Shown: one piece after another, positions 13,371 to 38,341 of the stretch
Layout of the letters: every line of letters begins with the position of its first letter
Position numbering within the stretch: the first letter of the stretch is position 1
From: Rufibacter psychrotolerans
GTDB taxonomy: Bacteria; Bacteroidota; Bacteroidia; Cytophagales; Hymenobacteraceae
Direction: 5' to 3'
DNA: 64,000 nucleotides
Assembly: GCF_016924645.1 (NCBI RefSeq)
Contig: NZ_JAFFJV010000002.1
Span: forward strand, 1-64,000
Position numbers and translations under genes: made by a program
The notes under the pieces: generated by a model
What the model was told of the DNA's origin: nothing
Seen by the model: only the letters and a program-made list of their open reading frames with translations
Database searches by the model: none

Positions 13371-13389
13371 GTTTGCGCTTTTCATTTTT

Positions 13390-18565: not shown

Positions 18566-20779
18566 CTATTGCAGCGCACCCAACTCCTTCATAGTCCAAA
18601 GTTCAGTCCTTCCTTTGGTTTCATCTCGCACTTTCTTCACTTGGGCGGGCGTAATCACCGAGGCTTTATTGCCAAAGTTGTTCCTAATATAACTGAGCAC
18701 AGCTGCCACGTTCTGGTCTTCATAGAACCCAAAACCAGGCATCACATCGGCGTACTCTTCTCCGTCAATCGGTCCTTTGAGGCCGTGCAGCAAGATCCTG
18801 ATTAAGCGGTCTGGTTTGCCTAGCACGTTTTTGGAGCCAGCCAAAGGCGGCGCGGGCATTTCTTTTCCGCCAATAGCGATTCCCTTGCCGTCCCCGCCGT
18901 GACAGGTACCGCACACGCTGTTGAAGGTAATGGCCCCCTGGGCCACCAGAAAGCGCTCGCTCTCTTTCATGGCCAGGGCTTTCTTCTCTGACTCGGCCAC
19001 GGCCTTGAGCACCGTCTCGTATTTTTTCTGGGAGGCGACCAGCACTTCTTGATTAGGGTAGGTTTTCAACAGGTGAACAAGCATCCCTTTGGCTTTCTCC
19101 GCAGAGTTGAACCGCAAGGACAGGGCCAGTTGGAACCGCACCTCGGCGTCTGGGTCATCCTTCAGGGCGTTCAGTTGGGTCAAAACGGCCTCGTTGGAAG
19201 AAATCATGTAGTTCTCACTCATCCAGACGGCCGTCTTCCTAACCCGTGGGTCTGGGTCTTTGAAGGCCTTGAACAACTCTTCCTCAGACAACCTGCCCAT
19301 CCCGTTCAAAGTCCAGAGGGCGTGCATTCTGGTGAGGTGGTTCGCGTGGGTAGTCAGGGCTCTGAGCGCAGGCACTGCTGAGGTATCTTTGCGCAGCACC
19401 AGCAGTTTCTGGGCGTTCTCGCGCCACCAGCCGTTAGGATGCTTTAAGTGCTCTGCCAGCTGCACCGAGGTTTCATGGAGCATGTTGGGCCGCTCTTTGG
19501 TGGGTTTGATGCCATCATACACAATCCGGTAGATGCGGCCCCGCCCAATGTTCTTGTCAAGGTTTTTCCGGAGGATCTGGTTGCCCAGGTAGGTGCCCGG
19601 CTTGGACCAGTTGCTTTCCTGGATGATGCCGCGGTGCATGTCCACAATGTACAGGTGACCGTCTGGGCCCGTGGCGCTGTTCACCGGGCGGAAGTTCATG
19701 TCCGTAGAGGCCAGAAATTCTTCTTGGTTGTAGGCATTGGTAAGCGTGATCTTCCCGTCTTGGTTGTGCACTTTGGCACGGCGCACCAAACGGCCCACCG
19801 GTTCGCAGATAATCAAGTCGCCCTGTAAATCCTGGGGCAGCTTGTCTCCCCGGAAGATGGTTTGGCCGCCACCACCGGTAAAGTGATTCAACGTGCTGTC
19901 GGGGCGCAGGCGGCGCTGGCCACCCTGCACGTCTGGCGTGGCCACAATAGGCCAAACCGCCTTGAACTCGGCGTCATACTGGTTACTGATGTCCAGGCGG
20001 CCATAAAATGGGTTCTGCTGAAAATTAAGGGCAGGCGTTTCGGCCCCAGCCGAGGAAAGGAACAAGCGACCATAGTTGTCATTAGCCAAGCCCCACTGCC
20101 CACCAGGGCGCTCTCCGTACAGCTCGGTCAAGAGCTTCCCGTCTTTGTACACGTACCGCCGGCTCTCCACCGACACGTAGATCTTGTTATCCAGGTTCCA
20201 GATAAGGCCACTGCGCTGGTGCTCCAGGTTGGCCTGGCTCACAGAATCATCCTGGAAAACCATTTCTCTCTCATCGGCCACGCCGTCTTGATCTGTGTCT
20301 CGGTAGCTATAAATGTGGTGGGTGTAGGTTTCGCTCACCAACAGGCGGTCATCCAGCGGCAGGATCATGCGGGGCAACACCAGGCTGTCTATATAAATCG
20401 TGGATTTGTCCATGACGCCGTCTCCATTGGTATCTTCCAGCCGTTTGATGGTGGAGTAGGGCTCATTCTGGTCGGTGCCTTTGATGTCTTGCATGTAGGT
20501 GCGCAGCTCGGCCACGTACATGCGGCCGTTCCCGTCCCAGGCAATGGCCACGGGCTCAATGACCATGGGTTCGCTGGCCACCAACTCGGCGCGGTAACCG
20601 GGCGGCAGGTAAATAGACTCCAAGCTTTGCTTTTTGGTCAGGAACTCGGGAGTAGGGTCCTGTTTAACGATTATTTTCCCCTTGGCGTCTCTGAGCACGG
20701 TAGCTTCGGGCATTTGGCAGGTGATGGCCAAAAACAGCAGCCCCAGCGCGCTCAACGAACTAATGTAACTCTTCTTCAT
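18566..20779 (-). CDS. PVC-type dehydrogenase-like protein with C-terminal cytochrome c
   Basis: This is a secreted or lipid-anchored redox protein of 737 residues. A signal with Cys in LAITC precedes an N-terminal propeller-like domain of the Pirellula/Verrucomicrobium type (LPPGYRAELVASEPMVIEPVAIAWDGNGRMYVAE). A HEAT-repeat-like middle (LRALTTHANHLTRMHALWTLNG; DPDPRVRKTAVW) leads to a C-terminal class I cytochrome c. CGTCH lies near residues 624-628, with a likely Met ligand in DVMPGFGF. Such proteins are thought to oxidise sugars or related compounds and pass electrons to cytochromes; the substrate is unknown. It is the last gene of the run starting with the small cytochrome c, TonB receptor and ThuA genes. 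Confidence 0.88.
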   Translation of the reverse strand: MKKSYISSLSALGLLFLAITCQMPEATVLRDAKGKIIVKQDPTPEFLTKKQSLESIYLPPGYRAELVASEPMVIEPVAIAWDGNGRMYVAELRTYMQDIKGTDQNEPYSTIKRLEDTNGDGVMDKSTIYIDSLVLPRMILPLDDRLLVSETYTHHIYSYRDTDQDGVADEREMVFQDDSVSQANLEHQRSGLIWNLDNKIYVSVESRRYVYKDGKLLTELYGERPGGQWGLANDNYGRLFLSSAGAETPALNFQQNPFYGRLDISNQYDAEFKAVWPIVATPDVQGGQRRLRPDSTLNHFTGGGGQTIFRGDKLPQDLQGDLIICEPVGRLVRRAKVHNQDGKITLTNAYNQEEFLASTDMNFRPVNSATGPDGHLYIVDMHRGIIQESNWSKPGTYLGNQILRKNLDKNIGRGRIYRIVYDGIKPTKERPNMLHETSVQLAEHLKHPNGWWRENAQKLLVLRKDTSAVPALRALTTHANHLTRMHALWTLNGMGRLSEEELFKAFKDPDPRVRKTAVWMSENYMISSNEAVLTQLNALKDDPDAEVRFQLALSLRFNSAEKAKGMLVHLLKTYPNQEVLVASQKKYETVLKAVAESEKKALAMKESERFLVAQGAITFNSVCGTCHGGDGKGIAIGGKEMPAPPLAGSKNVLGKPDRLIRILLHGLKGPIDGEEYADVMPGFGFYEDQNVAAVLSYIRNNFGNKASVITPAQVKKVRDETKGRTELWTMKELGALQ

Positions 20780-20893
20780 GCGTTAACTTCTTTATATTGG
20801 CGGAAGCTAAGCCTGTGCATCTTGCTTCCTGCGCCAGGAAGATCTGGCGTACTCATATTTCAGTGATGGGTTGGCTATCTCTGGCAAAGGCAT

Positions 20894-20940
20894 TTTCCCG
20901 TTTCTAGCCTCTTTTTTGAAAAACAGGCCGGAAACAGGAA
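20894..20940. repeat. Intergenic palindrome, copy 7
   Basis: GTTTCTAGCC on the left faces GGCCGGAAAC on the right around a T-run/A-run centre; pairing is imperfect. It starts 32 bases after the stop of the ThuA-like gene. Confidence 0.7.
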
Positions 20941-20972
20941 AACGGGTCACAGACTAGTCAACCGGAACGAGG

Positions 20973-21728
20973 TTATTTCTTTTTGCCCATGGCGTACTTA
21001 ATGCCACCCAGCAAGTGGTTTAGGAACAAGGGATCGGTATAGGATTGGTCGGTGTGACCCAGTTCGGTGTAGAAAGACCGACCACCGTCGAAGTCATGGT
21101 ACCAGGCCATGGGGTGGAAATCTCCGTTGGTGCCGCCTTTGTAGCTTTTCTCGTCAATGGTGATAAGCACGTTCAGGCCTTCCTTTATCCACTTAAAGTT
21201 GTACCACTCATCTTTCCTGCTCCATTGCGCCGGCAGGTGCTTGGTAGAAATATGGTTAGCGTCTACAATGTTGAGCGTGGCGGTTTGCCCATGCGGGTGG
21301 CCCCCGAAGTAGGCACCCACCAGGTTGCCGTACCACTCCCAGTCATACTCGCAGTCGGTGGCCGCATGGACCCCCACAAACCCGCCGCCTTTCTGGATAT
21401 ACCGCTCAAAGGCCTTTTCCTGCTCTGCGTTCAAGATGTCGCCGGTGGTGCTCAGGAAAACCACGGCAGCGTACTGTTTCAGATTTTGAGGGTTGATCTT
21501 GGTGGCATCGGTGGTGGTGTCTACCGCGAAGTTGTTCTCGGCGCCCAGCTTCAGAATGGCCTGGTTCCCTATCTTGATGGAGCCATGCCGGAACTTGGCC
21601 GTTTTGCTGAATACCAACACTTTGGGTGGTTTTGCCATTGCCTGGGCATTCTGGTTTATACACAGCAGCGCACCCAGACAAAGCAGCGTCCAGGCAAAGG
21701 TTCTTGTAAGGGCGGTAGAAATGGTCAT
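20973..21728 (-). CDS. ThuA-like domain protein, secreted
   Basis: This 251-residue protein with a Sec signal (ending near NQNAQAMA) carries a ThuA-like domain, a glutamine-amidotransferase-like fold. Typical stretches are KVLVFSKTAKFRHGSI, AAVVFLSTTGDILNAEQ, YIQKGGGFVGVHAATD, GAYFGGHPHGQ, and the C-terminal PMAWYHDFDGGRSFYTELGHT. ThuA was linked to trehalose or related disaccharide use in rhizobia, and homologues in Bacteroidota are often beside exported sugar oxidoreductases. No catalytic mechanism is established for the family. It lies 15 bases after the TonB receptor and before the PVC-type redox gene, consistent with one operon for uptake and oxidation of a sugar-like compound. Confidence 0.9.
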   Translation of the reverse strand: MTISTALTRTFAWTLLCLGALLCINQNAQAMAKPPKVLVFSKTAKFRHGSIKIGNQAILKLGAENNFAVDTTTDATKINPQNLKQYAAVVFLSTTGDILNAEQEKAFERYIQKGGGFVGVHAATDCEYDWEWYGNLVGAYFGGHPHGQTATLNIVDANHISTKHLPAQWSRKDEWYNFKWIKEGLNVLITIDEKSYKGGTNGDFHPMAWYHDFDGGRSFYTELGHTDQSYTDPLFLNHLLGGIKYAMGKKK

Positions 21729-21743
21729 AAGGGTTAGCGAGGC

Positions 21744-24119
21744 TTAAAAGTTAGCGCGTAATGACAGGCCGTAGGTTCTGGGGTCACCAAGGTGAGCGGC
21801 ACCAAAATCATAGGCATAGTCCAGGTAATGCTGATCAGAGAGGTTGTTACCCCACAGGAAGGCCTCAAACCTAGGTGTGGCTACCCCCACGCGGGCATTA
21901 AATTTGTGGTAAGGGTTTTGCCTGATTTGGTTGGCCAGGTCAAAATACTGCTCGCCAAGGTGGTTCCACTCCCCACGTAGGCCCACTTTAGCGTTAGTCA
22001 AACCCGGCATGGGCAGCCAGTACTGCAGCGCCAGCAAGGAGGTAATGTTGGGCGTGTAGATCTGCCGGTTACCGCTCAGATTCACTTCAGACCCGTTGGA
22101 AGCCACGTCCAGGGTTTTGTAGGTAGCCGAGGTGTATCCAAAACTGTACATGACGTCCAAACCTTTCAAGGCCTTGATGAATACCTCTGCTTCGGCGCCT
22201 TTGCTTTCCAGTTTCCCGGCGTTTTTAGTTACCGTGATGGCGTCTGGCAACACCAGGGTTGGCACCTGGGCATTGTTCACCCACACATAAAAAGCGGCCA
22301 GGTTCACCCGCACGCGGTTGTCCAGAAACGTATTCTTCAGACCCACCTCAAAGTTGTTACTGAACTCGGGTTTGTAAGCGAAAAGCGGGGGCTGCGAGGG
22401 GTCCGACGACAACTGGCTGAGCCCACCCGCCCGAAAACCTTTGCTGTAGGAAACAAAAGCACTTTGATTTATAGAAGGCTTGAACACCAGCCCCAGTTTG
22501 GGCGAGAAAGCTTTGAAGGATGCAGAGGCCGCCATCTCTTCTTGCGTAAGAATCAGTTCTTCCCCTTCACCGGGGCGGAATTCTCCTTTCACGCGCTGCC
22601 GTTTCTTTTCATAGTCATAACGCGCGCCCAGCACCACATCAAACGCCGTACCCAGCGTGTAGGTGGCTTGCCCGAACAAGGCTGCGCCGTGGCTTCTCAA
22701 CGTATTGGTGGCAATGCTCTGGGTGTTGGCCGGAGCCCCCATCAGCCCCGCATCTTCCCCAAAGAAAGTGCCTTGCTTTACCGGATTATACTGCCAAAAC
22801 CCGTAGGCCCCGGCTACCCACTGCAGTTTAGAAGAAGACAAAGCCGGCGTGGAAAACCTGAACTCCTGGATGCCCACTTTCACGTTGTTCCAGCGGTCAC
22901 CGTAGTTATTGAAAATGGAGACAGCATCAACGGGTGAGAAATCCCCATCCAGGGGCTGGTTGTAAAACCGATGGTTGTTCTGGTAAGAGGTCTGGGACGT
23001 GAAATTGACCTTATCGCCGAAGTAGTCCACCACCAATGACCCGTTAAAGGTATTGTCTTTCATGGTGGCTGTGCTGTTCTGGCTCAGTTCAAACGGGTTA
23101 GACAAGGCCTCTTCTACGCTGGATTCCAACGGAAACGCCCCCTCATTGCTGACCACGTTCTTCTTGGCGTTCAGCCGGAAAGACAACCTGGAGCTGGGCT
23201 TGTACACCAAAGACACGTTTCCGACCCAGGTCTGCTGATCGTCAAAAGAGGTATTGGTGAAAGTGTTCTGATAATAGCCCTCCCGGGTATGGAACAGGCT
23301 GGAAACGCCCAGAAATAACTTGTCTTGTACCAGCGGCGTGCTTATTCCCAGGCTGTAGCGTTGCAGGTTATAATTCCCCACGTTCACCTCGGCAAAGCCG
23401 CGGGTGGTATTGTCTGGTTGGCGGGTAATGATGTTGATGACCCCGCCCATGGAATTACGGCCGTACAGCGTGCCCTGCGGGCCGCGCAGCACCTCAATCC
23501 GTTCAATATCATGCAGCTGCGCGATATAGGTATCCAGGTTAAACTGGTTCACGCCATCAATGTACGTGGCCACGGTGGGGTCGTAGGACGTGGTGGCAAT
23601 GCCCCGGATAGAGGTGACGTTGCGGTTGTCGCCGGAGTGGCCGCTAAATAAGTTAGGGATAATGCCCGTCAGGTCGCGGGTGTTCCAGATCCTGGCTTCC
23701 TGAATTTGCCGGGCAGACAGCGTACTGATGCTCAAGGCCGTCTCCTGGGGGTCTTCCTCCTGCTTCTGGGCACTGATGACCACGGCCTCCAGTTGGTGCA
23801 GGGTGGCAGGCAACTGAAAATGCAGCACGGCATCTGCCTTTACCGTCATTTTTCGGTTCACCGCCGCGTGCCCCAGGGCGCTTACAAAGAACTGGTACTC
23901 GCCCGCCGGCACGTTCTCCAGAACAAAACTGCCGTTGGCCTGGGTAACGGTCTGGATATTGGTGTTCAGCAGCCGGATGCTCGCGCCCCCTATAGGAGCC
24001 GCCTGCAGGTCGGTTACTTCCCCTTCAAGGGTAATCAAAGACTGAGCCGCCGCCATGAAGGGCAAAGAAAACAGCAGACCCATTAAAAGCACTGGTACTC
24101 GTAAAAATTTAAAGATCAT
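21744..24119 (-). CDS. TonB-dependent receptor with carboxypeptidase-regulatory-like domain
   Basis: This outer membrane TonB-dependent receptor has 791 residues and is not of the SusC class. After the signal (FSLPFMAAAQS) comes a regulatory-like domain (LEGEVTDLQAAPIGGASIRL). The plug carries IRGIATTSYDPTVATYIDGV, IERIEVLRGPQGTLYGRNS and GGVINIITRQPD. The barrel ends in DPRTYGLSLRANF. These features resemble siderophore, vitamin or small-substrate receptors more than oligosaccharide receptors. It starts directly at the stop of the small cytochrome c gene (no spacer) and is followed 15 bases later by ThuA. The substrate is unknown; the redox neighbours argue against a plain iron receptor. Confidence 0.92.
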   Translation of the reverse strand: MIFKFLRVPVLLMGLLFSLPFMAAAQSLITLEGEVTDLQAAPIGGASIRLLNTNIQTVTQANGSFVLENVPAGEYQFFVSALGHAAVNRKMTVKADAVLHFQLPATLHQLEAVVISAQKQEEDPQETALSISTLSARQIQEARIWNTRDLTGIIPNLFSGHSGDNRNVTSIRGIATTSYDPTVATYIDGVNQFNLDTYIAQLHDIERIEVLRGPQGTLYGRNSMGGVINIITRQPDNTTRGFAEVNVGNYNLQRYSLGISTPLVQDKLFLGVSSLFHTREGYYQNTFTNTSFDDQQTWVGNVSLVYKPSSRLSFRLNAKKNVVSNEGAFPLESSVEEALSNPFELSQNSTATMKDNTFNGSLVVDYFGDKVNFTSQTSYQNNHRFYNQPLDGDFSPVDAVSIFNNYGDRWNNVKVGIQEFRFSTPALSSSKLQWVAGAYGFWQYNPVKQGTFFGEDAGLMGAPANTQSIATNTLRSHGAALFGQATYTLGTAFDVVLGARYDYEKKRQRVKGEFRPGEGEELILTQEEMAASASFKAFSPKLGLVFKPSINQSAFVSYSKGFRAGGLSQLSSDPSQPPLFAYKPEFSNNFEVGLKNTFLDNRVRVNLAAFYVWVNNAQVPTLVLPDAITVTKNAGKLESKGAEAEVFIKALKGLDVMYSFGYTSATYKTLDVASNGSEVNLSGNRQIYTPNITSLLALQYWLPMPGLTNAKVGLRGEWNHLGEQYFDLANQIRQNPYHKFNARVGVATPRFEAFLWGNNLSDQHYLDYAYDFGAAHLGDPRTYGLSLRANF

Positions 24120-24539
24120 CTACTTCAAAGACAAGATGTATTTGGTCATTTTCTTGGCATCTGCCTCAGACAAGGCGGTATGGGGAGCCATGGGGATTTG
24201 CCCCCAGGTACCGCTTCCACCTTTGATGATTTTCTGCGCCAACCTTGCGTAGTTGGCCTCGGTGGCTGGGTACTTGGTAGCTACGTCTTTGTAAGATGGC
24301 CCCAATGACTTGGCATCTATTTTATGGCAGGCCATACAATCTGACTTGGCAATCAGCTGCTTACCGGCCTCCAGTTCTGCGGCAGTGGGCTTGGTAGTAT
24401 TGGGTTTGGCGGCGGCCTTTTTAACCGGCTGTTTATTGCCTTGCGCCAGAGCGGTATTGCCAAATTCAGGGTTTGCCACGCTGTACCCAGCCACCAGGAA
24501 CAAGCACACCAAGCTGGCACTAAGAGTCTTTCTTACCAT
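24120..24539 (-). CDS. Small periplasmic class I cytochrome c
   Basis: This is a c-type cytochrome of 139 residues. A signal peptide (LVCLFLVAGYSVANPEFGNTALAQ) is followed by a Lys/Ala/Thr-rich linker and a heme domain with CMACH. The likely Met ligand is in QIPMAPH and the C-terminal helix is MTKYILSLK, as in c551/c552-type proteins. The start at 24539 gives the signal peptide; an upstream ATG at 24578 adds only a non-signal extension. It probably accepts electrons from the fused dehydrogenases in this block and passes them to the terminal oxidase. That role is inferred from position and size. Confidence 0.9.
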   Translation of the reverse strand: MVRKTLSASLVCLFLVAGYSVANPEFGNTALAQGNKQPVKKAAAKPNTTKPTAAELEAGKQLIAKSDCMACHKIDAKSLGPSYKDVATKYPATEANYARLAQKIIKGGSGTWGQIPMAPHTALSEADAKKMTKYILSLK

Positions 24540-24605
24540 TTCTAAGGGAGATTTCAGGGTGAATAAATCAAAAAACAAATGGTTGCAGATTGAAAACCGA
24601 TGGAT

Positions 24606-26597
24606 TTAAGGACGGTATCTCCAGAGCACATGCTCGTCCCGGGTATACAGACGACCTTGTTTGTCCATGGCCAGTAACCCAACCCCAGATTTTAGCAAGG
24701 TCTCCTTCATGGTTTTGGGGTCTATCCTGTAAAAGTTCCCATTAAATGTGGCGTATAAATACCCACTAGGATGAAAAACCAGGAAGGCATTGCGCCAGAT
24801 ATGGGTGGGCGTTCCGGCAATGTTGTAGTACTTGTGTGTAGTTACTACTTTCTTTTGAACCGGGTCAAACACAAACAGCGTACCATCTGCCATTCCCCAA
24901 ATATTACCGTCGGGCCCATTTACCAGGGCGGTAATGGCCCAGGCACCTGGCACCGGCACGGCCTCAAATGTCTTGATGTTGGCACTCGCATCCCAACCAA
25001 ACAGCTTTGCCTCTCCTGCCACTGGGCTAACCCCCAACCCTCCTGATATGGTAGTCCCTCCAATTACCAGCCCGCCTACATTCACTAAGCTGATTATTGA
25101 TTGGTTGTTTACAACATCTACATAGCTTTTTAATTGATTAGTATTCGCGGTATATTCCACCAAGGCACCTCCTAACTTACCGTAACCAGGTACCGTACCA
25201 AAATAGAGTTTTCCGGCACCCTCCACACTCACTCCGGCAAAGGGCCGGTCTTGACCCTCTATCCTACCAAGCGATTTTGGGTTGCCACTGTTGGAGTTCC
25301 AGGGGCGTTTAGTATCATAAACATAGAACTGCGCACCAGAATAGATCCCAAAATAGATGTTATCCCCTTGCACAGTCATCCCCTCAGCCTGACCCAACCC
25401 ACTGTATTGGGTCACCTTATCGTTGGTGGGGTCATAGGCAGCATTCCCCCCCGCTAGATAACCGCTAGACCAGATGCGTCCATCTGGACCGGTTACAATA
25501 GTTTGGATGTCATATGGCTGGGGAGGCACTTCAAATTTTACTGTTGTGATATTGCCTGATGCAGGATTATACCACCTCACCTGAGAATACTTTGTCAAGA
25601 TGTGCAGCGTGCCATCTTTGCCCCATCGCATGTCTTTAGCTTCATAACAATCAGCAATGAAAGTTGGAGCTTGCCCAGGCTTGCTTAAATCATGGGAGTA
25701 TAGCTTATTATTGGCCGTGTAATAGGTAAGGTTGGTTGTAGGCGATTTCACAACCGATTGAGCGTCTATTGTCTCCAACGTTTGCTCTACCAGCCCGGTG
25801 CTTAAGTTATATACCAAAGTCTTGCGCTGGTTAGGGCTGGTCACCCATGCTAACAACCTGTCGCCATCAGCGTAGCCGGCGGCCAACCCCATGTAATAGA
25901 CAAACTCCTGGTCAAAGTACTGGGAAGGCAGGATCTGCTTCTTTGCTTTTGTGGCCAAGTTTAGCTCCACCAAACGGGCATGCGCTCCTACTCCAATCAA
26001 CAGTTTGTTTGTTGGTGCATGGTATACCAAACTACGGGCATAACTCTCCCCAGAAACAACTGCTCCATTGGCCACATCTGTGAAGCCGGTTGAGGGATGG
26101 TAACGAAACACTTTCCCCCCAGGGTAAGTACCGCCAAACACTTCCCCGTCTTTACCCGCCACCAGATCAGAAATAGTTGTCTGGCCAGAGAGGACCAAAC
26201 CCAAATCTTCTACCGTTTGACTCCCAGGCCTTGTGCGGTATAGATGCGCATTATTGCCGCCAATGTATAACCAATGATCCGTTGAAGCCGTCATGGCCGT
26301 AGAACCATTAGCACCTACCAGTTCTAGATCGGCCACCACTCTTCTGGCTTTCATGTCATAGCCAACCAAGTGCCCCGGCTTGCCTGATACAACAGTATAA
26401 GCAAACTCATTTCCATTGGCATCTTGAACAAAATCGCTCGCTTGAAGGGTAGTAGCCGTCAGTTGGGCGCCTACGTTAGTAAAGATTCCCTCCCTTATCT
26501 CCTCTTTTTCTTCTTCCTCTTTTAAGGAATCTTCTTTACAAGAGATGCTACCTAGAGAAAGCAGACCGTATAGCAGCAGCAGATGGTACTTCTTCAT
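24606..26597 (-). CDS. Beta-propeller lipoprotein of unknown function, paralogue 1
   Basis: This 663-residue lipoprotein has a signal ending SLGSISC, then a charged EEEEKEEIRE stretch and a repeat-rich propeller. Repeating units include KVFRYHPSTGFTDV, GPDGRIWSSGYLAGG, PGYGKLGGALVEY and NGPDGNIWGMADG, which resemble blades of gluconolactonase or streptogramin-lyase-like propellers. It is about the same length as, and clearly paralogous to, the proteins at 26949-28928 and 29097-31079. Its DNA looks more AT-rich than theirs. It has its own 351-base upstream gap with an AT-rich palindrome, so it may be transcribed separately. No catalytic residue can be assigned; binding or lactone/ester chemistry are both open. 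Confidence 0.8.
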   Translation of the reverse strand: MKKYHLLLLYGLLSLGSISCKEDSLKEEEEKEEIREGIFTNVGAQLTATTLQASDFVQDANGNEFAYTVVSGKPGHLVGYDMKARRVVADLELVGANGSTAMTASTDHWLYIGGNNAHLYRTRPGSQTVEDLGLVLSGQTTISDLVAGKDGEVFGGTYPGGKVFRYHPSTGFTDVANGAVVSGESYARSLVYHAPTNKLLIGVGAHARLVELNLATKAKKQILPSQYFDQEFVYYMGLAAGYADGDRLLAWVTSPNQRKTLVYNLSTGLVEQTLETIDAQSVVKSPTTNLTYYTANNKLYSHDLSKPGQAPTFIADCYEAKDMRWGKDGTLHILTKYSQVRWYNPASGNITTVKFEVPPQPYDIQTIVTGPDGRIWSSGYLAGGNAAYDPTNDKVTQYSGLGQAEGMTVQGDNIYFGIYSGAQFYVYDTKRPWNSNSGNPKSLGRIEGQDRPFAGVSVEGAGKLYFGTVPGYGKLGGALVEYTANTNQLKSYVDVVNNQSIISLVNVGGLVIGGTTISGGLGVSPVAGEAKLFGWDASANIKTFEAVPVPGAWAITALVNGPDGNIWGMADGTLFVFDPVQKKVVTTHKYYNIAGTPTHIWRNAFLVFHPSGYLYATFNGNFYRIDPKTMKETLLKSGVGLLAMDKQGRLYTRDEHVLWRYRP

Positions 26598-26662
26598 AAC
26601 AAAGCAATTTATTTTAATATTTGCCATGAATTTAATAAAACGATTTAATAAATGAGGTAGTT

Positions 26663-26692
26663 AGTTAAATATATTTTAAAATATTATTAACT
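26663..26692. promoter_or_regulatory. AT-rich 30-bp palindrome, possible operator
   Basis: Outer blocks AGTTAA and TTAACT and the core ATATTTTAAAATAT share one symmetry axis; 13 of 15 positions in the arms pair. It lies 66-95 bases upstream of the lipoprotein start. An operator is possible, but base composition makes chance palindromes more likely here. Confidence 0.35.
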
Positions 26693-26873
26693 CATGCATC
26701 CCAAGTTCTCATGGAGTTTGTAAGCTGTTTTTATCAGTTATCACATTAATATGTACTACTAATCCTACCTATTTAGAAATAGACATAAAGGGCTTGTTTT
26801 GTCCGTACAACTGCCATTGAACTGCTGCTTGACAAAGAGGAGGAGCTTCCCTTAAAAACCAGGCAATAAAAAA

Positions 26874-26920
26874 CTCCCTGTTTTCAGCCCGATTTGGAAA
26901 AAGAGGCTGAAAACAGGGAG
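26874..26920. repeat. Intergenic palindrome, copy 8
   Basis: CTCCCTGTTTTCAGCC and its exact complement give 16-bp perfect arms. It starts 28 bases after the stop of propeller paralogue 2. Confidence 0.85.
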
Positions 26921-26948
26921 CATGTCAGAAGATTAAGCTACCGTAAGG

Positions 26949-29072: not shown

Positions 29073-29096
29073 AGTTACTAAACCGTGCTTTTGCAA

Positions 29097-31079: not shown

Positions 31080-32149
31080 AGGCTTAGGGCATTTTCGGTG
31101 GCCAAGAACTCATTTACAAACGCATCGTCGTTCAGGTGCGGATACATTTGATAGACGCGGTCAATCTCCTCCATCTGCCCCTCAGATAATTCTTCCTGCG
31201 GATTGAGGCACCAACGGCCTTCCAGCAGGCCCTGACGGCGCAGCACCTCGTGGATGCCCGGGATACAGCCATGGAAGGCGTGCGCCGGGTCAAAGAGGGC
31301 GGCGTTCACATCGGTCACCTCAATGCCTTTGGTCAAAAGAGCATCAGCTCCCTCACCGGTTTTATTCAGGCGGTATTCCTTTATTTCCTCCAATAGCTCC
31401 ACCGCTTTCTGGGTCCAGACGGCCCAGTGGCCAAGCAGGCCGCCCACAAACTCCTTCTCCACTGTCTGTCCGTTGATGCTGAAGCGGTAGGTGGTCATCA
31501 GGTCTGGGATGATGTTGTCGTCGTTACCGGTGTACATGGCAATCTGGTCCCGGCGAGAGGAGTGGCACACGGCCCGCATCACGTCCAGGGTCTGGTAGCG
31601 GTTGAACGAGGCGACCTTAATAGCCATCACGTTCTCTATCTCGGCGAACTGTAACCAGAAATCGTAGCTGAAGATGCGCCCGCCCACTGAGGGTTGCAGG
31701 TAAAACCCGAACACCGGCATGATTTGGGCCACGGCCCGCACGCGGTCCAGGATCTGCGCCTCGGTCCAACCCTGCAGGCCGCCCATGCTCAGCAAGCCAA
31801 TGTCGTAGCCGTGCTTCAGGGCAATCCGGGCTTCGTTCTCTGCCTGGGCGGTGGGCCCGCAGATTCCGGCCACTTTGATGAACGGGCGGTCCAGGCCGGC
31901 CTTGGCCACCTCCTCGGCGGCCAGCCGCAGCACGGTCTCATACAAGTTCACCTCCGGGTCACGTATTTCAAATTGAGTAGAGTGAACGCCCACAGCCACG
32001 CCTCCGGCTCCACTGGCCATATAGTAGCGGGTGAGCTGGCGCTGCATGTGTTCGTCTAAGGCACGGTCGGCGTTTAAAGCTAATGGGTGCGCAGGAATAA
32101 CGGTGCCCTGGTGCAGAAACTCTTGGAGGTTGTTAGGTAGTTGTTTCAT
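31076..32149 (-). CDS. DapA-like (dihydrodipicolinate synthase/NAL superfamily) aldolase
   Basis: This cytoplasmic class I aldolase-fold protein has 357 residues. The Schiff-base Lys is probably the K in MAIKVASFNRY. The region that reads GTTGE in DapA reads GVHSTQFEI here, so it is not a lysine-biosynthesis DapA and does not match sialic acid lyase either. It is also longer than the usual roughly 300 residues. Its ATG overlaps the stop of the dehydrogenase-like gene (TAATG) and its own stop overlaps the start of propeller paralogue 3. Cleavage or formation of a 2-keto acid is the family chemistry; the substrate is unknown. Confidence 0.85.
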   Translation of the reverse strand: MKQLPNNLQEFLHQGTVIPAHPLALNADRALDEHMQRQLTRYYMASGAGGVAVGVHSTQFEIRDPEVNLYETVLRLAAEEVAKAGLDRPFIKVAGICGPTAQAENEARIALKHGYDIGLLSMGGLQGWTEAQILDRVRAVAQIMPVFGFYLQPSVGGRIFSYDFWLQFAEIENVMAIKVASFNRYQTLDVMRAVCHSSRRDQIAMYTGNDDNIIPDLMTTYRFSINGQTVEKEFVGGLLGHWAVWTQKAVELLEEIKEYRLNKTGEGADALLTKGIEVTDVNAALFDPAHAFHGCIPGIHEVLRRQGLLEGRWCLNPQEELSEGQMEEIDRVYQMYPHLNDDAFVNEFLATENALSL

Positions 32150-33165
32150 TAGAATTTGCCTTCTCTTTCCTGAAAATGGGTTGCTTTGCCAAAGGTGTCG
32201 CCGCCTTCCTGTATCCAGAGCGCGGTGATGTCCAATATCTCCCGGATGGTCACCTTGGGGTAGCCGAACAGGCGGTGGGCCTCTGAGGCGTTGCTGAGCA
32301 ACGCGGTGGGTTGCACTTCATGGATGAACCTGGGCTCCTTCCCGAACATGTTACCGAACTGCTCCGCCACCCACTGAACTGACAAGGTCTCTGGGCCAGT
32401 CACGTTTAACAGCTTGGCCGGTGACTCACAGTGCAGCAGCGAACGGATTGCGATTTCATTCGCGTCGCCCTGCCAGATCACGTTCACGTTGCCGGTTCTT
32501 AAGTCAATCTCGCGGCCTTCGTTCACGGCTTTGGCAATCTCCAGCAGCACACCGTAGCGGAAATCAACGGCGTAATTCAGGCGGTAGATAAGGGTAGGCG
32601 TGTTGTTCTTCTGGGAGAAGTACTGGAAAATACGCTCCCGACCCAGGCAGGACTGCCCGTACTCCCCTACCGGCGCAGCCGGATACTCCTCGGACAGGCC
32701 GCCCGAGGTGACCGGCACAAACGGATACACGTTGCCCGTGGAGAAGGCCACTATGTTAGACTCGCGGTAGCGCTCGGCCACTCGGCCTGGCAGGTACGCG
32801 TTCATGGCCCAGGTGAAAGCCTCTTTGCCCGTGGTCCCAAACTTGTTGCCGGCCAGGTAGAGGATGTTCTCCGCATCGGGCAGGTTCTGCAAATCGGTCT
32901 CGTTCAATAAATCAGCGGCAATGGTCTCAATGCCATAGGATTCAATTTCATCACGGGTGCTTTTGTCTGAGAACCTGGAAACGCCTATGATTCTCTTGTT
33001 AAGCCCGGCGGCCTCCACGGCCTGCTTGGCCAGTTTGCCCATGCTGGGGCCCATCTTGCCGCCAATGCCCAGCAGCATGATGTCGCCCTTGATTTTTGCA
33101 ATGTCCTGCAGCAGGTCAGGGGAGGGTTTCAGCAGTTCCTGCTCCAAGGTTTGTAAGTCTTTCAT
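32149..33165 (-). CDS. NAD-dependent epimerase/dehydratase-like (SDR) protein with altered active site
   Basis: This Rossmann-fold protein of the extended SDR class has 338 residues. The nucleotide loop is LGIGGKMGP near residue 35, and the Ser of the triad is in FSTGNVYPF. The catalytic YxxxK is changed: EYGQSCLGRERIF near residue 168 has Cys (TGC codon) where Lys is expected. Either the enzyme uses another general base or this subfamily has a different role. The stop codon overlaps the DapA-like start, so the two products probably act on the same compound. The N-terminal 27 residues before the Rossmann strand are unusual for the family. Confidence 0.82.
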   Translation of the reverse strand: MKDLQTLEQELLKPSPDLLQDIAKIKGDIMLLGIGGKMGPSMGKLAKQAVEAAGLNKRIIGVSRFSDKSTRDEIESYGIETIAADLLNETDLQNLPDAENILYLAGNKFGTTGKEAFTWAMNAYLPGRVAERYRESNIVAFSTGNVYPFVPVTSGGLSEEYPAAPVGEYGQSCLGRERIFQYFSQKNNTPTLIYRLNYAVDFRYGVLLEIAKAVNEGREIDLRTGNVNVIWQGDANEIAIRSLLHCESPAKLLNVTGPETLSVQWVAEQFGNMFGKEPRFIHEVQPTALLSNASEAHRLFGYPKVTIREILDITALWIQEGGDTFGKATHFQEREGKF

Positions 33166-33210
33166 TCCTGAATGTTATGTAAAGGGTGTTCAGATGCTTT
33201 TAAATTCTGG

Positions 33211-33254
33211 CCCTGTTTTTGGGCCTCTTTTCTGGAAACGAGGCCCAAAACGGG
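33211..33254. repeat. Intergenic palindrome, copy 10
   Basis: TTTTGGGCCTC pairs exactly with GAGGCCCAAAA. The variable block is changed on both arms compared with copy 2 (CAGGCCT/AGGCCTG). It starts 6 bases after the transporter stop. Confidence 0.85.
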
Positions 33255-33260
33255 AACCGC

Positions 33261-34511
33261 CTAGCCAAATAGTTCTATGGCGTTGCTGATGGCCAACCCT
33301 ATAATCAGCAAAAGCCCCAGCGCCCCGAAAATCTTGGAGACCAGGTTATTCTTCAGGTTGCCCATCACAGAGGCTTTGTTGGCAATGAAATACATGGCCA
33401 CGCCAATGAATGGCACCAGGAAGATGGTAACGCTCTGTGCGAAGACAATCAGCTCTAGCGGCAACTTGCCAAACAGGATGGCAATCACGGCCCCAGCCAC
33501 CATGACCAAGGCAATCAGGTATTTCACGACGTTGTTGCTCAGGTTGCTGCCAAAACCCAGGGCATCGCCCAGCAGGGTGCCGCCTACGGAGGCATTGCCC
33601 ACCAAAGAGGAGAAAGAAGCCCCAAACAAGCCAATCAGAAACAGCGAAGAGGCATAATTACCGAAGAGCGGCTCCAGGGCCTTCGCCATCTCTGAGGCGC
33701 TGGTCACTTTCAAGCCCTGCGGGTTTAAGACGGCCGCCGCGCAGATTAACACCACGGCGCTCATAATGCCCAGAATCAGAATTCCGGTCACGGAACTGTT
33801 GTTGGAGTAAGTCTCTGGGGCGGCATCTGCGGGCTGTAATTTCCTGCGTTCCTGCACCAGATAGGCTTGGTAAAAAGCTCCTACTATAGAAAAGCACGAC
33901 GCCGTGAAAGCAATGACTAAACCAATGGAACCATCTGGCAAAGAAGGCACAAAGCCTTTTGCCACCCCTGCCACATCTGGGTCAGCCATGAACAGCGTGG
34001 TCACAAAAGAGAACAGCATGATGGCCACCAGGGCAATCATCAGTTTCTCCAGGATTTTGTAGAAAGACCTGAAAAACAGGAGCCCTATTCCCACCACGTT
34101 GAACACAATCACCCACAGCGCGGGCTTGGTGCCAGTGGCCTCAGCAATGGCAATGCCTACGCCAATAGAGTTACCTGCCTGGAACGAGGTAGTCACCAGA
34201 AAGACCCCCACGCCAATAATTATGGCTACCGCTCCGCCCCACTGCTGCCGTATCAAGGCCAGCAACGAGACCTTGCTGGCAGTGCCTATGCGGGCGCCCA
34301 TGTTGGTGAAAATAACCATGAAGAAAATAGCCACGGCCACCACCCACATAAGGGAGTAGCCGTAATCTGCTCCCATCTTGGAGGTGATGGTCATTTTGCT
34401 GGGCCCAAAGACCAGCGCGGCCGTGATAATGCCTGGCCCCAAGGAATACAGCCACCTTTTGAGGGTAGTCTCCTTTTTGATTTGCGTTGGTTCAATAACT
34501 GGTGCGCTCAT
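33261..34511 (-). CDS. Nramp-fold transporter lacking the metal-binding motifs
   Basis: This integral membrane protein of 416 residues has about 11 hydrophobic segments and clear overall resemblance to Nramp/MntH (LGPGIITAAL; GADYGYSLMWVVAVA). In TM1 the DPGN motif that holds the metal-binding Asp and Asn reads GPSK (residues 36-39). In TM6 the MPH motif is absent; the region reads SIVGAFYQAYLVQ. Metal transport of the usual kind is therefore unlikely. It lies 2 bases from the sugar dehydrogenase gene and upstream of the SDR and aldolase genes, so import of an organic product is a plausible inference. Nramp-related proteins with altered selectivity (for example Mg transporters) are known. Confidence 0.85.
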   Translation of the reverse strand: MSAPVIEPTQIKKETTLKRWLYSLGPGIITAALVFGPSKMTITSKMGADYGYSLMWVVAVAIFFMVIFTNMGARIGTASKVSLLALIRQQWGGAVAIIIGVGVFLVTTSFQAGNSIGVGIAIAEATGTKPALWVIVFNVVGIGLLFFRSFYKILEKLMIALVAIMLFSFVTTLFMADPDVAGVAKGFVPSLPDGSIGLVIAFTASCFSIVGAFYQAYLVQERRKLQPADAAPETYSNNSSVTGILILGIMSAVVLICAAAVLNPQGLKVTSASEMAKALEPLFGNYASSLFLIGLFGASFSSLVGNASVGGTLLGDALGFGSNLSNNVVKYLIALVMVAGAVIAILFGKLPLELIVFAQSVTIFLVPFIGVAMYFIANKASVMGNLKNNLVSKIFGALGLLLIIGLAISNAIELFG

Positions 34512-34513
34512 CT

Positions 34514-36046
34514 TTATCGGTTGGATTTGATTTCATTCTCACTTATCCCTGATGCTCCGTTCCCCCAGCTGCTTCGCACGTAGGTGGCAATGCTGGCAAT
34601 CTCGGCGTCTGTCAGGAAACCGAAGGAAGGCATGGCTTGGTCATATCGCTGGCCTTTCACCGTGATAGGGCCAGAGAGCCCCTTCAGGATAATCTTAGCC
34701 AACTGATTCTTGTCGCCGGTCACCTGCTCGGCGCCCTGCAAGGGTGGGAACGTGCCCGGCACGCCCTGCCCGTCTTCTTTGTGGCATGCCGCGCAATGCT
34801 GCGTAAACAAGGCTGAGCCGCTCACCGCATCCTGTTGCTGGGGCTTCGGTTTGCGCACATAGCCAATGGGGCGTTTCTCTGTCTTGATTTTGCCGATGCG
34901 CAGGATGCGGTCATCCCTTTCCACCGGGAAACCCGGCGAGGGGTTCCAGTCACGGTTGCTGGTGGAGACGTAGATGTCGCCGGTGGGTGAGACGCAGATG
35001 TCGCGCAGCCTGCCGTACTGGTTTTCTAGGTGAACTTCCTCTGAGGTCACAATAGTACCGTCATGGCTCAGGGTCAGTACCCGCAGGCTCTTGCCCTTGA
35101 GCGTGCTTAGTAAAATGGAGTTGGTCCACTCTGGAATAGAATCTGAGGCATAGAAGTCTATCCCCGCCGGGGCGATGGTGGGCGTCCAGGACCGGAGCGG
35201 CTGGGTGCGCTGGTGCCGGGCCGCGATGGCTTTCTCCACTGGGGTATCATGCCGGCCCTCAATCTCAGGCCAGCCGTAATTTTGCAGCGGCTTGATGATG
35301 TTCACCTCGTCTTCCAGGGCCTCGCCGTGCTCTGAGGTATAGACCATGCCAGAGGGAGCAACGGCCAGCCCCTGCATGTTCCGGAAGCCCCAGGCCACCA
35401 CGTAGCTGTTAGGAATGGGATTGTCCTTGGGGATGGAGCCGTCTATGTTCAGCCGCAGGATCTTCCCGTTCAACACCGTGGAATCCTGCGCGTAGCCTTT
35501 CTTCTGCACATCGCCGGTGGCCCAGAGTAGCTTGCCGTCGGGCGTGAAGGCCATCCTTGAGCCGTTGTGTGAGGTACCGCCGTCTATCTGCAAAAGCAAC
35601 TTGGCATTGGCGAGCGTGTCTTTCTGGAAGGTGTAGCGCACCAACCTGGAGACAATCACACTGTCCGGCCCCACTTTGGTGGTGTAGTTGACGAAGACGT
35701 ATGGGTGCTGCTCCAGGTCTGGGTGCAGGGCCATGCCCAGCAGGCCCGAAGTACGCTTGCGCCATACCTCTTTAATGTTTAGGAGCACCTTCTTCTCCCC
35801 GGTGGTCACGTTGATACGGCTCACGGTGCCGCTCTGCTCGGTTACCCACAGGTGGCCGTCTGAACCCCAAACAATATCCCAAGGCACGTTCAGGCCCTCG
35901 GCCACCACGCTCACGCCCAGAATGGTGGAGTCCAACTCTAGGGTAGTCTCCACCGGATAATGTTTTGGCGCAACCGCATTGTTTCCGGCCCCGCACCCAA
36001 CCAGGAAAAAAGCGAATAAAAGGAAGCAGCCCGTACTTAATTTCAT
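34514..36046 (-). CDS. PQQ-type glucose/sorbosone dehydrogenase-like lipoprotein fused to cytochrome c
   Basis: This 510-residue redox lipoprotein has a signal ending FFLVGC. A six-bladed soluble-glucose-dehydrogenase-like propeller follows (GLNVPWDIVWGSDGHLWVTEQ; LLGMALHPDLE; VVAWGFRNMQGLAVAP; YTSEHGEALEDEVNII). The C-terminal cytochrome c has CAACH near residue 418 and a likely Met ligand in QAMPSFGF. Family members oxidise sugars with PQQ; here the electron would pass to the fused heme and then to a soluble cytochrome. PQQ biosynthesis genes are not in the window. It is followed 2 bases later by the Nramp-like transporter. Its cytochrome tail resembles that of the PVC-type protein at 18566-20779. 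Confidence 0.9.
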   Translation of the reverse strand: MKLSTGCFLLFAFFLVGCGAGNNAVAPKHYPVETTLELDSTILGVSVVAEGLNVPWDIVWGSDGHLWVTEQSGTVSRINVTTGEKKVLLNIKEVWRKRTSGLLGMALHPDLEQHPYVFVNYTTKVGPDSVIVSRLVRYTFQKDTLANAKLLLQIDGGTSHNGSRMAFTPDGKLLWATGDVQKKGYAQDSTVLNGKILRLNIDGSIPKDNPIPNSYVVAWGFRNMQGLAVAPSGMVYTSEHGEALEDEVNIIKPLQNYGWPEIEGRHDTPVEKAIAARHQRTQPLRSWTPTIAPAGIDFYASDSIPEWTNSILLSTLKGKSLRVLTLSHDGTIVTSEEVHLENQYGRLRDICVSPTGDIYVSTSNRDWNPSPGFPVERDDRILRIGKIKTEKRPIGYVRKPKPQQQDAVSGSALFTQHCAACHKEDGQGVPGTFPPLQGAEQVTGDKNQLAKIILKGLSGPITVKGQRYDQAMPSFGFLTDAEIASIATYVRSSWGNGASGISENEIKSNR

Positions 36047-36613
36047 AAAGTGTGTTAAGATTTTCTAGCTTTTCTGCCTGGGCAGAGGGATTGCAGTTCT
36101 AGTGCCTCGTCTGTTTTCGACCTCATTTTAAGAATGGAGCCCTAAAACGGACAAGTGCAGGTTGTCTTGCCGGAACGCATGGGTTGGATAATGGGCCAAA
36201 TGTCTTTGGACGTCATGAACATCAAAACCATTCGGCCCTCTTATGCCTTGCAAAGAATATGACTGCGCCTGCTTGGGAGAGTCTGGGAGAAGATACCTTA
36301 AGCTGATTCCTTATGCAGAGTCAACTATCTTGGTGTCATTCTCCCTTTCTTTCATTGCTATTGTTGTCTGTTGCTACACTTGTCTTGACATTGCCCGCTC
36401 CCCTTCAAAGAAGGCCTCAGGAATGGTCGCACAAAAACTTTCAGTCAAGGCAAATTGACTGTTTGCCACCTGTCTTTGGTTACCCAACCTTTCCCTAGAG
36501 GAAGATTCTTTAATGAACAAAGGGCAGGGAAAACAGCTGTTTTGGGAGAGGCTGGAAGAGTAAGCGCCAACTGCTCCGGCAAAGTGCTATCGGCCTTGAC
36601 CATTCATAGCTTC
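36047..36613. other. Long gap upstream of the sugar dehydrogenase
   Basis: A 567-base gap that holds palindrome copy 11 and otherwise no gene I can support. Short plus-strand frames (36243-36458, 36313-36498) show no start context or family resemblance. It probably separates two transcripts within the redox block. Confidence 0.55.
36109..36152. repeat. Intergenic palindrome, copy 11 (degenerate)
   Basis: GTCTGTTTT on the left faces AAAACGGAC on the right; the inner block is poorly paired. It lies 63 bases upstream of the dehydrogenase start and more than 450 bases from the previous stop. Confidence 0.6.
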
Positions 36614-38341
36614 CTATGCTTCCTTAGGCCACTCCGTTTCAATACCCTGCGACTTAATAAAAGTCTGGAATTCTGCCAGCAGCGCTTTGTTTTCGCGCAC
36701 GGCGCGGGGTTTCACGTTTTTGGCCGAGGCAAACTTCACCAGCATACCCACTGACTCGCCTATGTTCCATTCCACGGGGTGCAGGCGGTAGCAGCCGTTG
36801 GTAATGTGCGTGGTACCTATGTTCTTGTTGGCCGGCAACAGGTTATCCATCCGCACCGGCAACAGCGCGCCCAATGGAATCTGGAACCGCAGCGAACCAA
36901 AGTCCACGTAGTTGACTTTATCTGAGGTTGGGTGAAGGTCAATGCGGTAATAGCCCACCCCCACGCTGTCATAGAAATAGGCCGCCTGGCCACGCTCTCC
37001 TTTCTTAGCCACTTTGGCTCTCTGCTCCTCGCCTACATGCTCCTCCAGCACTGTGAAGACAGCTTTGATTCTGCGGCTTTCGCGTACGTACGGGTATTTG
37101 GCCAGGCCATCCTCGGTACCCATGATGTCTTTGCGCAGGCGCAGTCCGGGCCATCCTTTGCCACCGTCTGGGCGTGGGGCCTCAGTCTGCAGCCAGTACA
37201 GCAAAGAAAGGCTCAATTGCTTGGCACCGTCAACGTGCTTGTTGAATTCCTCTTCTGAAGCACCTACCAAATCACCCAGCATGTAGTCATTCTGCGGCCA
37301 GTTCACAATAGTGATGTCACCGGCATAAGCGCCAGGCGCAAAATTGTCTTTGCTGATAATGCGGCGGTATTTCATCAGGTTCAGCAAATCACCGGTGGGA
37401 GTGCTCTCTGGGTGAAAGCCCAAGGCCTTTGGCTGCAGGGTGTAGGGGCTGGAGTAATGCAATGCCAACAATTTACCGGGCCAAGACGGAGTTAATTCCG
37501 GCACGTGGTTCATCCAGAAATCATAGTCGCGCGGTTTTTCAATCACGTGGTTGCCGCCGGGCACGTAGTCCATGGCAAAGCAGGCGGTAAAGGCTTGGTT
37601 CCCTTTGGGGTTGCCTTTGGCGGGGGCATGCAGTTCATTGGTATCTTTCTTGCTCTCTGTACCGGTGACAAACTCGGTGCCGGTAAGGGGCAACAAGTCA
37701 CCCAACTCCGTGGCGTCTACAAAGTAGGGGGCTACCAGCGTTTTAGTTTTACCGGAGCGCAGATCTTTGGCAGTAAGGGCGTTTACCTTTGAACCGGTTA
37801 CGTCTGCGGCGGTCACACGGTGCTCCAGCAGCAGCGCCAGTTTGCCGGCACTCAGGTAAGGAGCCAGCATCTCGTTCATCACGGCTAGGGCCACACGGGG
37901 TTCATGGCATAATTTAGACACCACGCCATCACCGGGGTTTAACAGGGGGCGTTTGCGGGCCTCGCCGGTCAAGGGGTAGGTGCGCTTGTAATACTCACGC
38001 ACGGCAGTTCTGAAATCACGGTACAGTTTGGTGCCGCCGTGAGTTTCAATCCATTCGTGCTCATCGGGTGGTACGCCCTGGCTGGTGAGTTGTCCGCCTA
38101 TCCAATCGGTTTCCTCCGTCAAGATAACGGTCTGGCCGTTGCGCAAAGAGGCCATGGCCGCCGCAAAACCACCCAGGCCCGCCCCAGCAATGACCACATC
38201 GGCGGTCAGTTGCTGGTTACCGTTGGGTTGGGTCACTTTCTTTACTTCGGCCAGGGCCGAGGTGGGTAACCCAGTCAAAGAAGCCGTGGCCAGCGCACCG
38301 CCGCTAAGGCTCAGGAGCCCAATAAAATTTCTGCGTTTCAT
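36614..38341 (-). CDS. FAD-dependent oxidoreductase, Tat-exported
   Basis: This flavoprotein has 575 residues and a twin-arginine signal (KRRNFIGLLSLSGG to PTSALA). The FAD-binding loop is VIAGAGLGGFAA (residues 50-61), followed by the conserved EETDWIGGQLTSQGV. It belongs to the FAD_oxidored class, members of which are often found in glycan loci without known chemistry. Export by Tat agrees with a bound flavin and a periplasmic role beside the cytochrome-linked enzymes. It follows the MFS transporter gene by 58 bases. The C-terminal RLHPVEWNIGESVGMLV is typical of the family. Confidence 0.88.
   Translation of the reverse strand: MKRRNFIGLLSLSGGALATASLTGLPTSALAEVKKVTQPNGNQQLTADVVIAGAGLGGFAAAMASLRNGQTVILTEETDWIGGQLTSQGVPPDEHEWIETHGGTKLYRDFRTAVREYYKRTYPLTGEARKRPLLNPGDGVVSKLCHEPRVALAVMNEMLAPYLSAGKLALLLEHRVTAADVTGSKVNALTAKDLRSGKTKTLVAPYFVDATELGDLLPLTGTEFVTGTESKKDTNELHAPAKGNPKGNQAFTACFAMDYVPGGNHVIEKPRDYDFWMNHVPELTPSWPGKLLALHYSSPYTLQPKALGFHPESTPTGDLLNLMKYRRIISKDNFAPGAYAGDITIVNWPQNDYMLGDLVGASEEEFNKHVDGAKQLSLSLLYWLQTEAPRPDGGKGWPGLRLRKDIMGTEDGLAKYPYVRESRRIKAVFTVLEEHVGEEQRAKVAKKGERGQAAYFYDSVGVGYYRIDLHPTSDKVNYVDFGSLRFQIPLGALLPVRMDNLLPANKNIGTTHITNGCYRLHPVEWNIGESVGMLVKFASAKNVKPRAVRENKALLAEFQTFIKSQGIETEWPKEA

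Follow-up and report, generated by a model that had tools for sequence, protein, structure and literature searches.

The minus strand of a 64,000-nucleotide stretch of the Rufibacter psychrotolerans genome (contig NZ_JAFFJV010000002.1, positions 1 to 64,000; hereafter the window) carries a recurrent, tightly spaced gene unit encoding a glucose/sorbosone dehydrogenase type protein fused to cytochrome c (GSDH), an Nramp-related transporter, an epimerase-type short-chain dehydrogenase/reductase (SDR), a DapA-like lyase and, in part of the loci, a propeller-type protein. We consider it very probable that these genes work as one, and the unit is a real, conserved catabolic unit that has so far had no assigned substrate. 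In the window, GSDH (34514..36046), a putative PQQ-dependent aldose dehydrogenase by its PF07995 match and the recurrent first gene of the core, is followed by the Nramp-related transporter, which lacks the DPGN and MPH metal-site motifs (33261..34511; PF01566, 238 bits), the SDR, which lacks the catalytic Lys (32149..33165; PF01370, 24.8 bits vs 20.9), the DapA-like lyase, in which the Schiff-base Lys178 is kept and the GxxGE motif changed (31076..32149), and propeller-type protein 1, with a signal peptide recognized by eye (29097..31079). All genes assigned to the system lie on this strand, in the stretch from 2.0 to 46.5 kb. Each of the gene types named in an initial annotation made from the DNA letters alone was confirmed by family searches of the window proteins. 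That annotation knew of no described pathway with this set, and our literature searches found no paper on the gene set at the level of titles and abstracts. The set recurs in many bacteria of soil and water. With a fixed partner set across genera, this Nramp-related group has a substrate that is directly testable.

Conservation of the core across genomes

A scan with the DapA-like protein gave 176 relatives, and the locus counts rest on the best 80 of these 176. The 80 loci represent 17 genera and 3 further lineages; Pedobacter, Sphingobacterium and Algoriphagus account for most of them. Bacteroidota and Fodinibius contribute 70 loci, and Paenibacillus and Cohnella the other 10. Flanks reached about 10 kb or less past DapA, partner genes were counted within six genes of it, and locus genes were labelled by best blast match, with Pfam and NCBIfam run on single representatives. 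The SDR was the direct upstream neighbour of DapA in 79 of the 80 loci, at a spacing of 30 bases or fewer in 78 of those 79. An Nramp-related gene was found near DapA in 66 loci (15 lineages) and GSDH in 62 (14 lineages), and the latter two genes were spaced by 30 bases or fewer in 57/62 loci, three loci with GSDH downstream of DapA not being counted. Propeller genes were near DapA in 30 loci (8 lineages), with the relative directly downstream of it, one Gfo/Idh family in 21 (10 lineages), and SusC and SusD each in 43. The SDR–DapA–propeller–Nramp neighbourhood that the initial annotation had proposed to look for elsewhere thus recurs across genera with tight spacing, and for its core genes both co-occurrence and spacing contradict a coincidental arrangement. 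Larkinella rosea (L042) is the sole exception among the 80 loci, with no SDR called next to DapA; its SDR is perhaps hidden, because the DapA frame called there (9482-11065) is overlong.

Within the window, the stop of the DapA-like gene and the start of the propeller 1 gene share the four bases ATGA (31079-31076), and the stop of the SDR gene and the start of the DapA-like gene share one base in TAATG at 32149; these are the two overlaps of the initial annotation. GSDH and the Nramp-related gene are 2 bases apart, and the latter is 95 bases from the SDR. Open reading frames (ORFs) were called as the longest open frames, and negative intergenic gaps stem partly from overlong starts. The Bacteroidota promoter pattern had 0 matches in the window, where about 1 is expected by chance.

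The link between the Nramp-related and DapA-like genes also holds in genome-wide counts. Among 200 genomes of the family, the DapA-like gene was present in 11 (12 copies), and an Nramp match at 1e-20 was present in 12, of which the 11 at E<1e-170 were the same 11 genomes as for DapA; all 12 full-length Nramp-related copies lay about 1.1 kb (one gene) from DapA, excluding a 24% identity match in G086 and a broken 133-residue piece in G039. Across 395 genomes of the phylum, 6 had DapA at 1e-40, with an identity of just 36% in one case. Four had the Nramp-related gene at 1e-60, each time about 1.1 kb away from DapA, and the 2 others carry DapA without the Nramp-related gene. In a PF01566 search of 29 relatives, which yielded 26 loci, one Nramp copy from another family of the order (L137), found by this search alone, had the GPSK motif described below and an SDR and DapA beside it. 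In the resulting tree, built without L138 (the window itself), L147 and L152 (no frame), the DapA-linked sequences and the L137 copy formed one group (support 0.977). At one phylum locus (L130, G213:C3), with a DapA relative 36% identical, labelling of the surrounding 19 kb gave no relative of the SDR, Nramp or GSDH genes.

Beyond Bacteroidota, the SDR–DapA pair was also found in Bacillota, Actinomycetota, Alphaproteobacteria and Planctomycetota. The DapA-like gene occurred in 20 plasmid records (Paenibacillus, Mesobacillus, Aquisphaera, Streptomyces, Nitratireductor, Tistrella, Rhodococcus, Sulfitobacter and others) and in 3 of 348 Bacillota genomes, centre genome included. We examined 13 plasmid regions, 11 of them with usable annotation, and in all 11 an SDR-type gene adjoined DapA or lay one gene away; of the two others, in Microvirga it was recognized by blast, and in the Nonomuraea region the ORF calls did not show an SDR beside DapA. 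Propeller relatives were near the pair in Mesobacillus (37%), Streptomyces (31%) and Paenibacillus (28%). In the 11 annotated regions the pair carries family names only, and because it is spread from Bacteroidota to Streptomyces and alphaproteobacteria, it may represent a catabolic step that is absent from genome annotation. In three alphaproteobacteria (L103, L104, L108), a gene for a two-domain GNAT acetyltransferase lies between the SDR and DapA, and relatives of it were also seen in L101 and L126.

A proposed oxidative route and a possible role of the Nramp-related protein

We give about an even chance to a reading in which the locus is of the polysaccharide utilisation type and has an oxidative branch. 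Outside the cytoplasm, hydrolases (two GH20 hexosaminidases in the case of the window) would free an aldose, which GSDH, with its own heme, would oxidise at C1 in the periplasm to a lactone or aldonic acid, perhaps assisted by the flavoprotein and cytochromes described below. The acid would be imported by the Nramp-related protein without metal-binding residues, the SDR would make or reshape a 2-keto acid, with oxidation at C2 as our guess for this step, and the DapA-like enzyme would cleave the keto acid via a Schiff base, releasing an aldehyde along with pyruvate or hydroxypyruvate as the C3 keto acid; these products are likewise a guess. No phosphorylation would occur along the route. More tentatively, an Nramp-fold protein may here have turned from a metal carrier into a sugar-acid importer, feeding an undescribed, phosphorylation-free (N-acetylamino-)aldonic acid pathway in which an SDR without the Lys works with a diverged DapA-type lyase, a pair shared across phyla.

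The description of the Nramp gene as altered in the initial annotation was borne out by alignment with solved MntH (8e6n; 390 residues, 2.5e-26), which places the protein in the same family as Nramp/SLC11 and Nramp-related proteins. MDPGN of MntH aligned with FGPSK, and the Met of the motif on transmembrane segment (TM) 6 aligned with Ser, so that the metal-site Asp, Asn and Met are Gly, Lys and Ser in the window protein. The canonical motifs, DPGN on TM1 and MPH on TM6, are thus FGPSK and CFSIV here, whereas L133-L135 retain DPGN/MPH in the same alignment; GPSK was kept in 66 of 67 members of the Nramp-related group. By the definition given in the excerpted text of a 2026 preprint (family members without metal motifs; PMC12873925), the window protein belongs to the Nramp-related class. 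The same text calls all but two groups of these proteins entirely uncharacterised, with one Nramp-related protein (NRMT) carrying Mg2+ and one group holding a hypothesised Mn2+ importer (PMC12873925).

Those two precedents, together with other carriers near some loci, speak for an alternative in which the Nramp-related protein carries a metal (e.g., Mg2+, as NRMT does) for pathway enzymes and the organic substrate enters by another carrier. Metal uptake was our first reading of the gene; it was set aside, and kept as a rival that we regard as unlikely, because the metal residues are lost and the link to DapA is strict. In the sampled genomes, the full-length gene was found only beside the DapA-like gene, and in contrast to Nramp/SLC11 metal transporters, it has both metal motifs replaced and is linked to carbohydrate genes.

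Several observations on carriers weigh against the proposed scheme. Of the 80 loci, 5 have an SSF relative and 12 an MFS relative; an SSF symporter was also found in extended Sphingobacterium loci, and a crude count of membrane segments placed another polytopic protein within seven genes in 32 of the 78 stretches that carry Nramp. No clear replacement carrier was seen in the Nramp-less Bacteroidota loci (4 of the 80, one of them on a 3.5-kb contig) or in G368/L126, and two of the 13 plasmid loci (L101 and L106) had no organic-solute importer in the cluster. Given the other carriers at part of the loci, import need not depend on the Nramp-related protein alone. A clean replacement of Nramp by another carrier was also considered; it is weakened by the polytopic proteins near Nramp-bearing loci. 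In 11 of the 13 plasmid loci, which lack Nramp, an organic-solute importer was present (sugar or other ABC, TctABC, or MFS); an "NMT1" label given to the ABC systems in L103, L104 and L108 was a guess and was dropped, the records saying ABC transporter only. A second Nramp-family gene (L155 and relatives, 69-84 bits) was found in 13 of 16 sampled genomes of the window's genus, with SAVGPGFLT or SAVGLGFLT at the TM1 place in copies whose frames were read.

Candidate substrate and proposed cleavage chemistry

Two SusC/SusD pairs and two GH20 genes on one strand mark the window locus as a polysaccharide utilisation locus. The pairs comprise a SusD (8534-10447) with a SusC-type receptor (10305-13523), and a SusD (13390-15084) with a SusC-like receptor (15122-18121), spanning 8534..13523 and 13390..18121, respectively (both minus strand). 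One GH20 hexosaminidase (2807..5467, minus strand) is 47-55% identical to the GH20 that follows the propeller in 10 Pedobacter loci (assigned by Pfam in one, by blast in the others), the second lies at 6516..8294 (minus strand), and GH20 domains were also found in L118 and Spirosoma L027. Further along the strand are genes for an MFS sugar transporter of the gluP type (38400..39650; 288 bits vs 203) and an N-acyl-D-glucosamine 2-epimerase (39654..40859), which passed its curated cut-off (708 vs 600). The GH20 genes and this epimerase make the window version look built for N-acetylhexosamine-containing glycans, and an N-acetylhexosamine is the leading, though still doubtful, candidate for the aldose in the window, with possibly another aldose in other lineages. 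The gene directly downstream of DapA in L118 belongs to the glucosamine-6-phosphate isomerase/6-phosphogluconolactonase family (59 bits vs 27). A sialic acid substrate, hinted at by the 2-epimerase and the relation of the lyase to N-acetylneuraminate lyase (NAL), was set aside, as NAL came barely ahead of dihydrodipicolinate synthase (DHDPS) in the profile search.

The partner genes of other loci support a sugar acid as the compound handled, as the oxidation–import–cleavage idea of the initial annotation implied. In Sphingobacterium athyrii, genes for a gluconolactonase, aminotransferase, galactonate dehydratase, SDR, ceramidase-like protein, SSF symporter, M20 hydrolase and Gfo/Idh protein lie 10-25 kb from DapA; in Sphingobacterium L171, the gluconolactonase (PF08450) scored 119 bits vs 26.3 and the galactonate dehydratase (NCBIfam PRK14017) 333 vs 311. 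Blast relatives of the dehydratase, lactonase and SSF symporter were present in all six Sphingobacterium/Niabella loci that were extended, of 11 such loci. In three Pedobacter loci (L062, L068, L071), aminotransferase, dehydratase and SSF genes are joined directly to Nramp–SDR–DapA–GSDH, the galactonate dehydratase of L062 scoring 340 vs 311 and having close relatives in the other two.

The same lactonase and dehydratase genes speak for a neutral-sugar or uronate version of the pathway, which we think improbable: the acid would be galactonate-like or derived from a uronic polysaccharide, a galactonate-type dehydratase would turn it into the 2-keto-3-deoxy acid, and the DapA-like protein would be a non-phosphorylating aldolase, as in a De Ley-Doudoroff pathway without the kinase. 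Relatives of GH88 in 8 of the 80 loci, favouring uronic acids over amino sugars, and a BNR_4 family in 25 (5 lineages), one member of which matched PL25 ulvan lyase at 2e-8, point the same way and weigh against an amino sugar, and the glycan appears to vary from lineage to lineage. The window genome (99.84% complete), however, has no relative of galactonate dehydratase at E<=1e-40, a result that concerns this dehydratase family only, and the window carries GH20 and the N-acylglucosamine 2-epimerase instead. The missing dehydratase, which weakens a simple galactonate route, also counts against the sugar-acid scheme itself, as does the finding that, of the family's 11 genomes with DapA, just 4 carry a galactonate-type dehydratase, away from the block. 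A "hepII" gene label was a guess from a fragment and was rejected; the full gene had only a sub-cut-off heparinase II C-terminal match (22.3 vs 26.1).

Non-phosphorylating De Ley-Doudoroff/Entner-Doudoroff pathways comprise an aldose dehydrogenase, a lactonase, an aldonate dehydratase and a class I aldolase. Those enzyme types occur together in some loci here, and to our knowledge these pathways include neither an Nramp-related carrier nor an SDR without the catalytic Lys. The 3-keto-glycoside pathway of Bacteroidota uses a GMC enzyme with gluconate_2-dh3 and a 3-keto-disaccharide hydrolase; both gene types were seen in a few loci, and neither among the window genes scanned, which reach to 51.2 kb. 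The nearest known system in logic is the ong cluster of Pseudoalteromonas, which takes up and degrades GlcNAc1A, the oxidised monomer of chitin (C1-oxidised N-acetylglucosamine): a lytic polysaccharide monooxygenase (LPMO) makes the acid, OngB (a subtype V amidohydrolase) and OngC remove its acetyl and amino groups, and KdgK phosphorylates (PMC9537276, PMC12017989). Both systems have a GH20 hexosaminidase and TonB receptors, and an amino-sugar aldonic acid is the substrate of ong and the one proposed here. The two also resemble each other in a dedicated inner-membrane carrier, which in ong is of the SSS family, a kind also near some of our loci, and, under the proposed scheme, in that no phosphorylation precedes the keto acid. 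Here, GSDH, the Nramp-related protein, the SDR and the DapA-like lyase stand in place of the ong enzymes, and none of the OngB, OngC and KdgK types was found among the window genes scanned.

The SDR had been called altered by the initial annotation, and its alteration is a family trait: the Lys of YxxxK was absent from all 80 sequences and from the 19 rows of a cross-phylum alignment. The Tyr of this extended SDR motif is kept, and the 80 sequences have one of three variants (YAQSCLGRER in 64, YGQSCLGRER in 13 and YAQSTLGRER in 3). In the cross-phylum alignment, the SDR retains Tyr169, Arg176 and most of the glycine-rich loop (GxGGKMG), which suggests an active nucleotide-binding enzyme.

The DapA-like identity was upheld by the family profile, which matched NAL (5e-9) and DHDPS (7e-8) in PDB, and by the Schiff-base Lys, present in 31 of 31 rows and aligned with the Lys of both enzymes. 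GxxGE is the pyruvate-binding motif of the DapA/NAL superfamily; unlike that superfamily, the DapA-like family has VH[ST]TQF in its place and a C-terminal extension. The window protein had no Pfam match at 0.001, and a relative fell below the DHDPS cut-off (19.7 vs 22.1). Tyr150, the candidate catalytic Tyr, whose position relative to NAL is uncertain by one residue, was present in 29 of 31 rows, the two that lack it counting against the proposed lyase mechanism. L105 and L111 (Rhodococcus and Glaciihabitans) have Ala or Ser at this position and keep the Lys.

Other chemistry, with an SDR devoid of dehydrogenase activity (an epimerase-like or structural partner) and a DapA-like dehydratase or hydratase, would accommodate the Lys missing throughout, the non-universal Tyr150 and a PDB match of the DapA profile to L-2-keto-3-deoxyarabonate dehydratase (8e-4), but is very improbable given the conserved Tyr169, Arg176 and glycine-rich loop. 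Outside Bacteroidota, serine dehydratase genes lie near the pair in 5 of the 10 Bacillota loci and also in Prescottella, and hydroxyacid dehydrogenase genes in two Streptomyces and Glaciihabitans; these would fit a C3 product such as hydroxypyruvate. In Nitratireductor, TctABC and a gene annotated as mandelate racemase lie beside SDR–DapA, which speaks for a sugar acid.

Outer genes and borders of the locus

The initial annotation had treated the whole block from 18566 to 38341 as one unit, which holds for GSDH–Nramp–SDR–DapA–propeller and less so for the outer genes. The gene for a PVC-type DUF7133–HEAT–cytochrome c protein (18566..20779; NCBIfam TIGR02604, 161 bits vs a cut-off of 122), ThuA (20973..21728; PF06283, 271 bits) and a TonB-dependent receptor with no adjoining SusD gene (21744..24119), all on the minus strand, were seen again with the core in only one of the 80 loci, that of Pelobium manganitolerans (L021), where all genes between and including the 713-residue gene and the PVC gene are present in the window's order. 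The PVC gene could have been missed in other loci, because their flanks extend no more than about 10 kb beyond DapA. A relative of the small cytochrome c (24120..24578, minus strand; TTG start in the ORF list, with an internal ATG 13 codons in) was near DapA in two loci, Pelobium and L048, and a second propeller gene lay further downstream in Pelobium and two Pontibacter loci. Such sparse recurrence is what coincidental neighbours with unrelated roles would produce, an explanation that the co-occurrence and spacing of the core make most improbable for the unit.

The three propellers of the initial annotation are paralogues, with paralogues 2 (26949..28928) and 3 (24606..26627), both on the minus strand, 46 and 49% identical to propeller 1. 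A profile search of PDB matched entries named Cake (8e-18), which we take to be designed propellers, and a propeller fold is likely for all three on sequence grounds. Propeller 1 is 168 bases from propeller 2, and 321 bases lie between propellers 2 and 3; GSDH stands 567 bases away from the Tat-type FAD oxidoreductase upstream (36614..38341, minus strand; PF12831), the N-terminus of which, MKRRNFIG, has by eye a twin-arginine signal. The PF12831 flavoprotein is also upstream of GSDH in Pontibacter and Pelobium.

Recurrent partners were found outside the borders drawn initially, at 2-8 kb and 45-46 kb, all on the minus strand. Besides GH20, these are a GDSL esterase (2067..2789), 58-59% to the GDSL near DapA in four Pontibacter-type loci, a Gfo/Idh oxidoreductase of a recurrent partner family (5488..6507), matching 33 of 115 compared stretches, some of which share a genome, and an M20 hydrolase (45302..46516), with relatives near DapA in 10 of the 80 loci (7 genera), a link that is weak because M20 genes are common. 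The 713-aa protein (40993..43134, minus strand) has no Pfam match and is kept in the collinear Pelobium locus. A 499-residue protein at 43398-44897 (minus strand), also without a Pfam match, has a signal-like start and, by eye, the look of a C-terminal sorting domain. Just past the locus, on the plus strand, are a bile-acid-symporter-family gene (47470-48564) and a gene with six-hairpin glycosidase matches (48828-51212).

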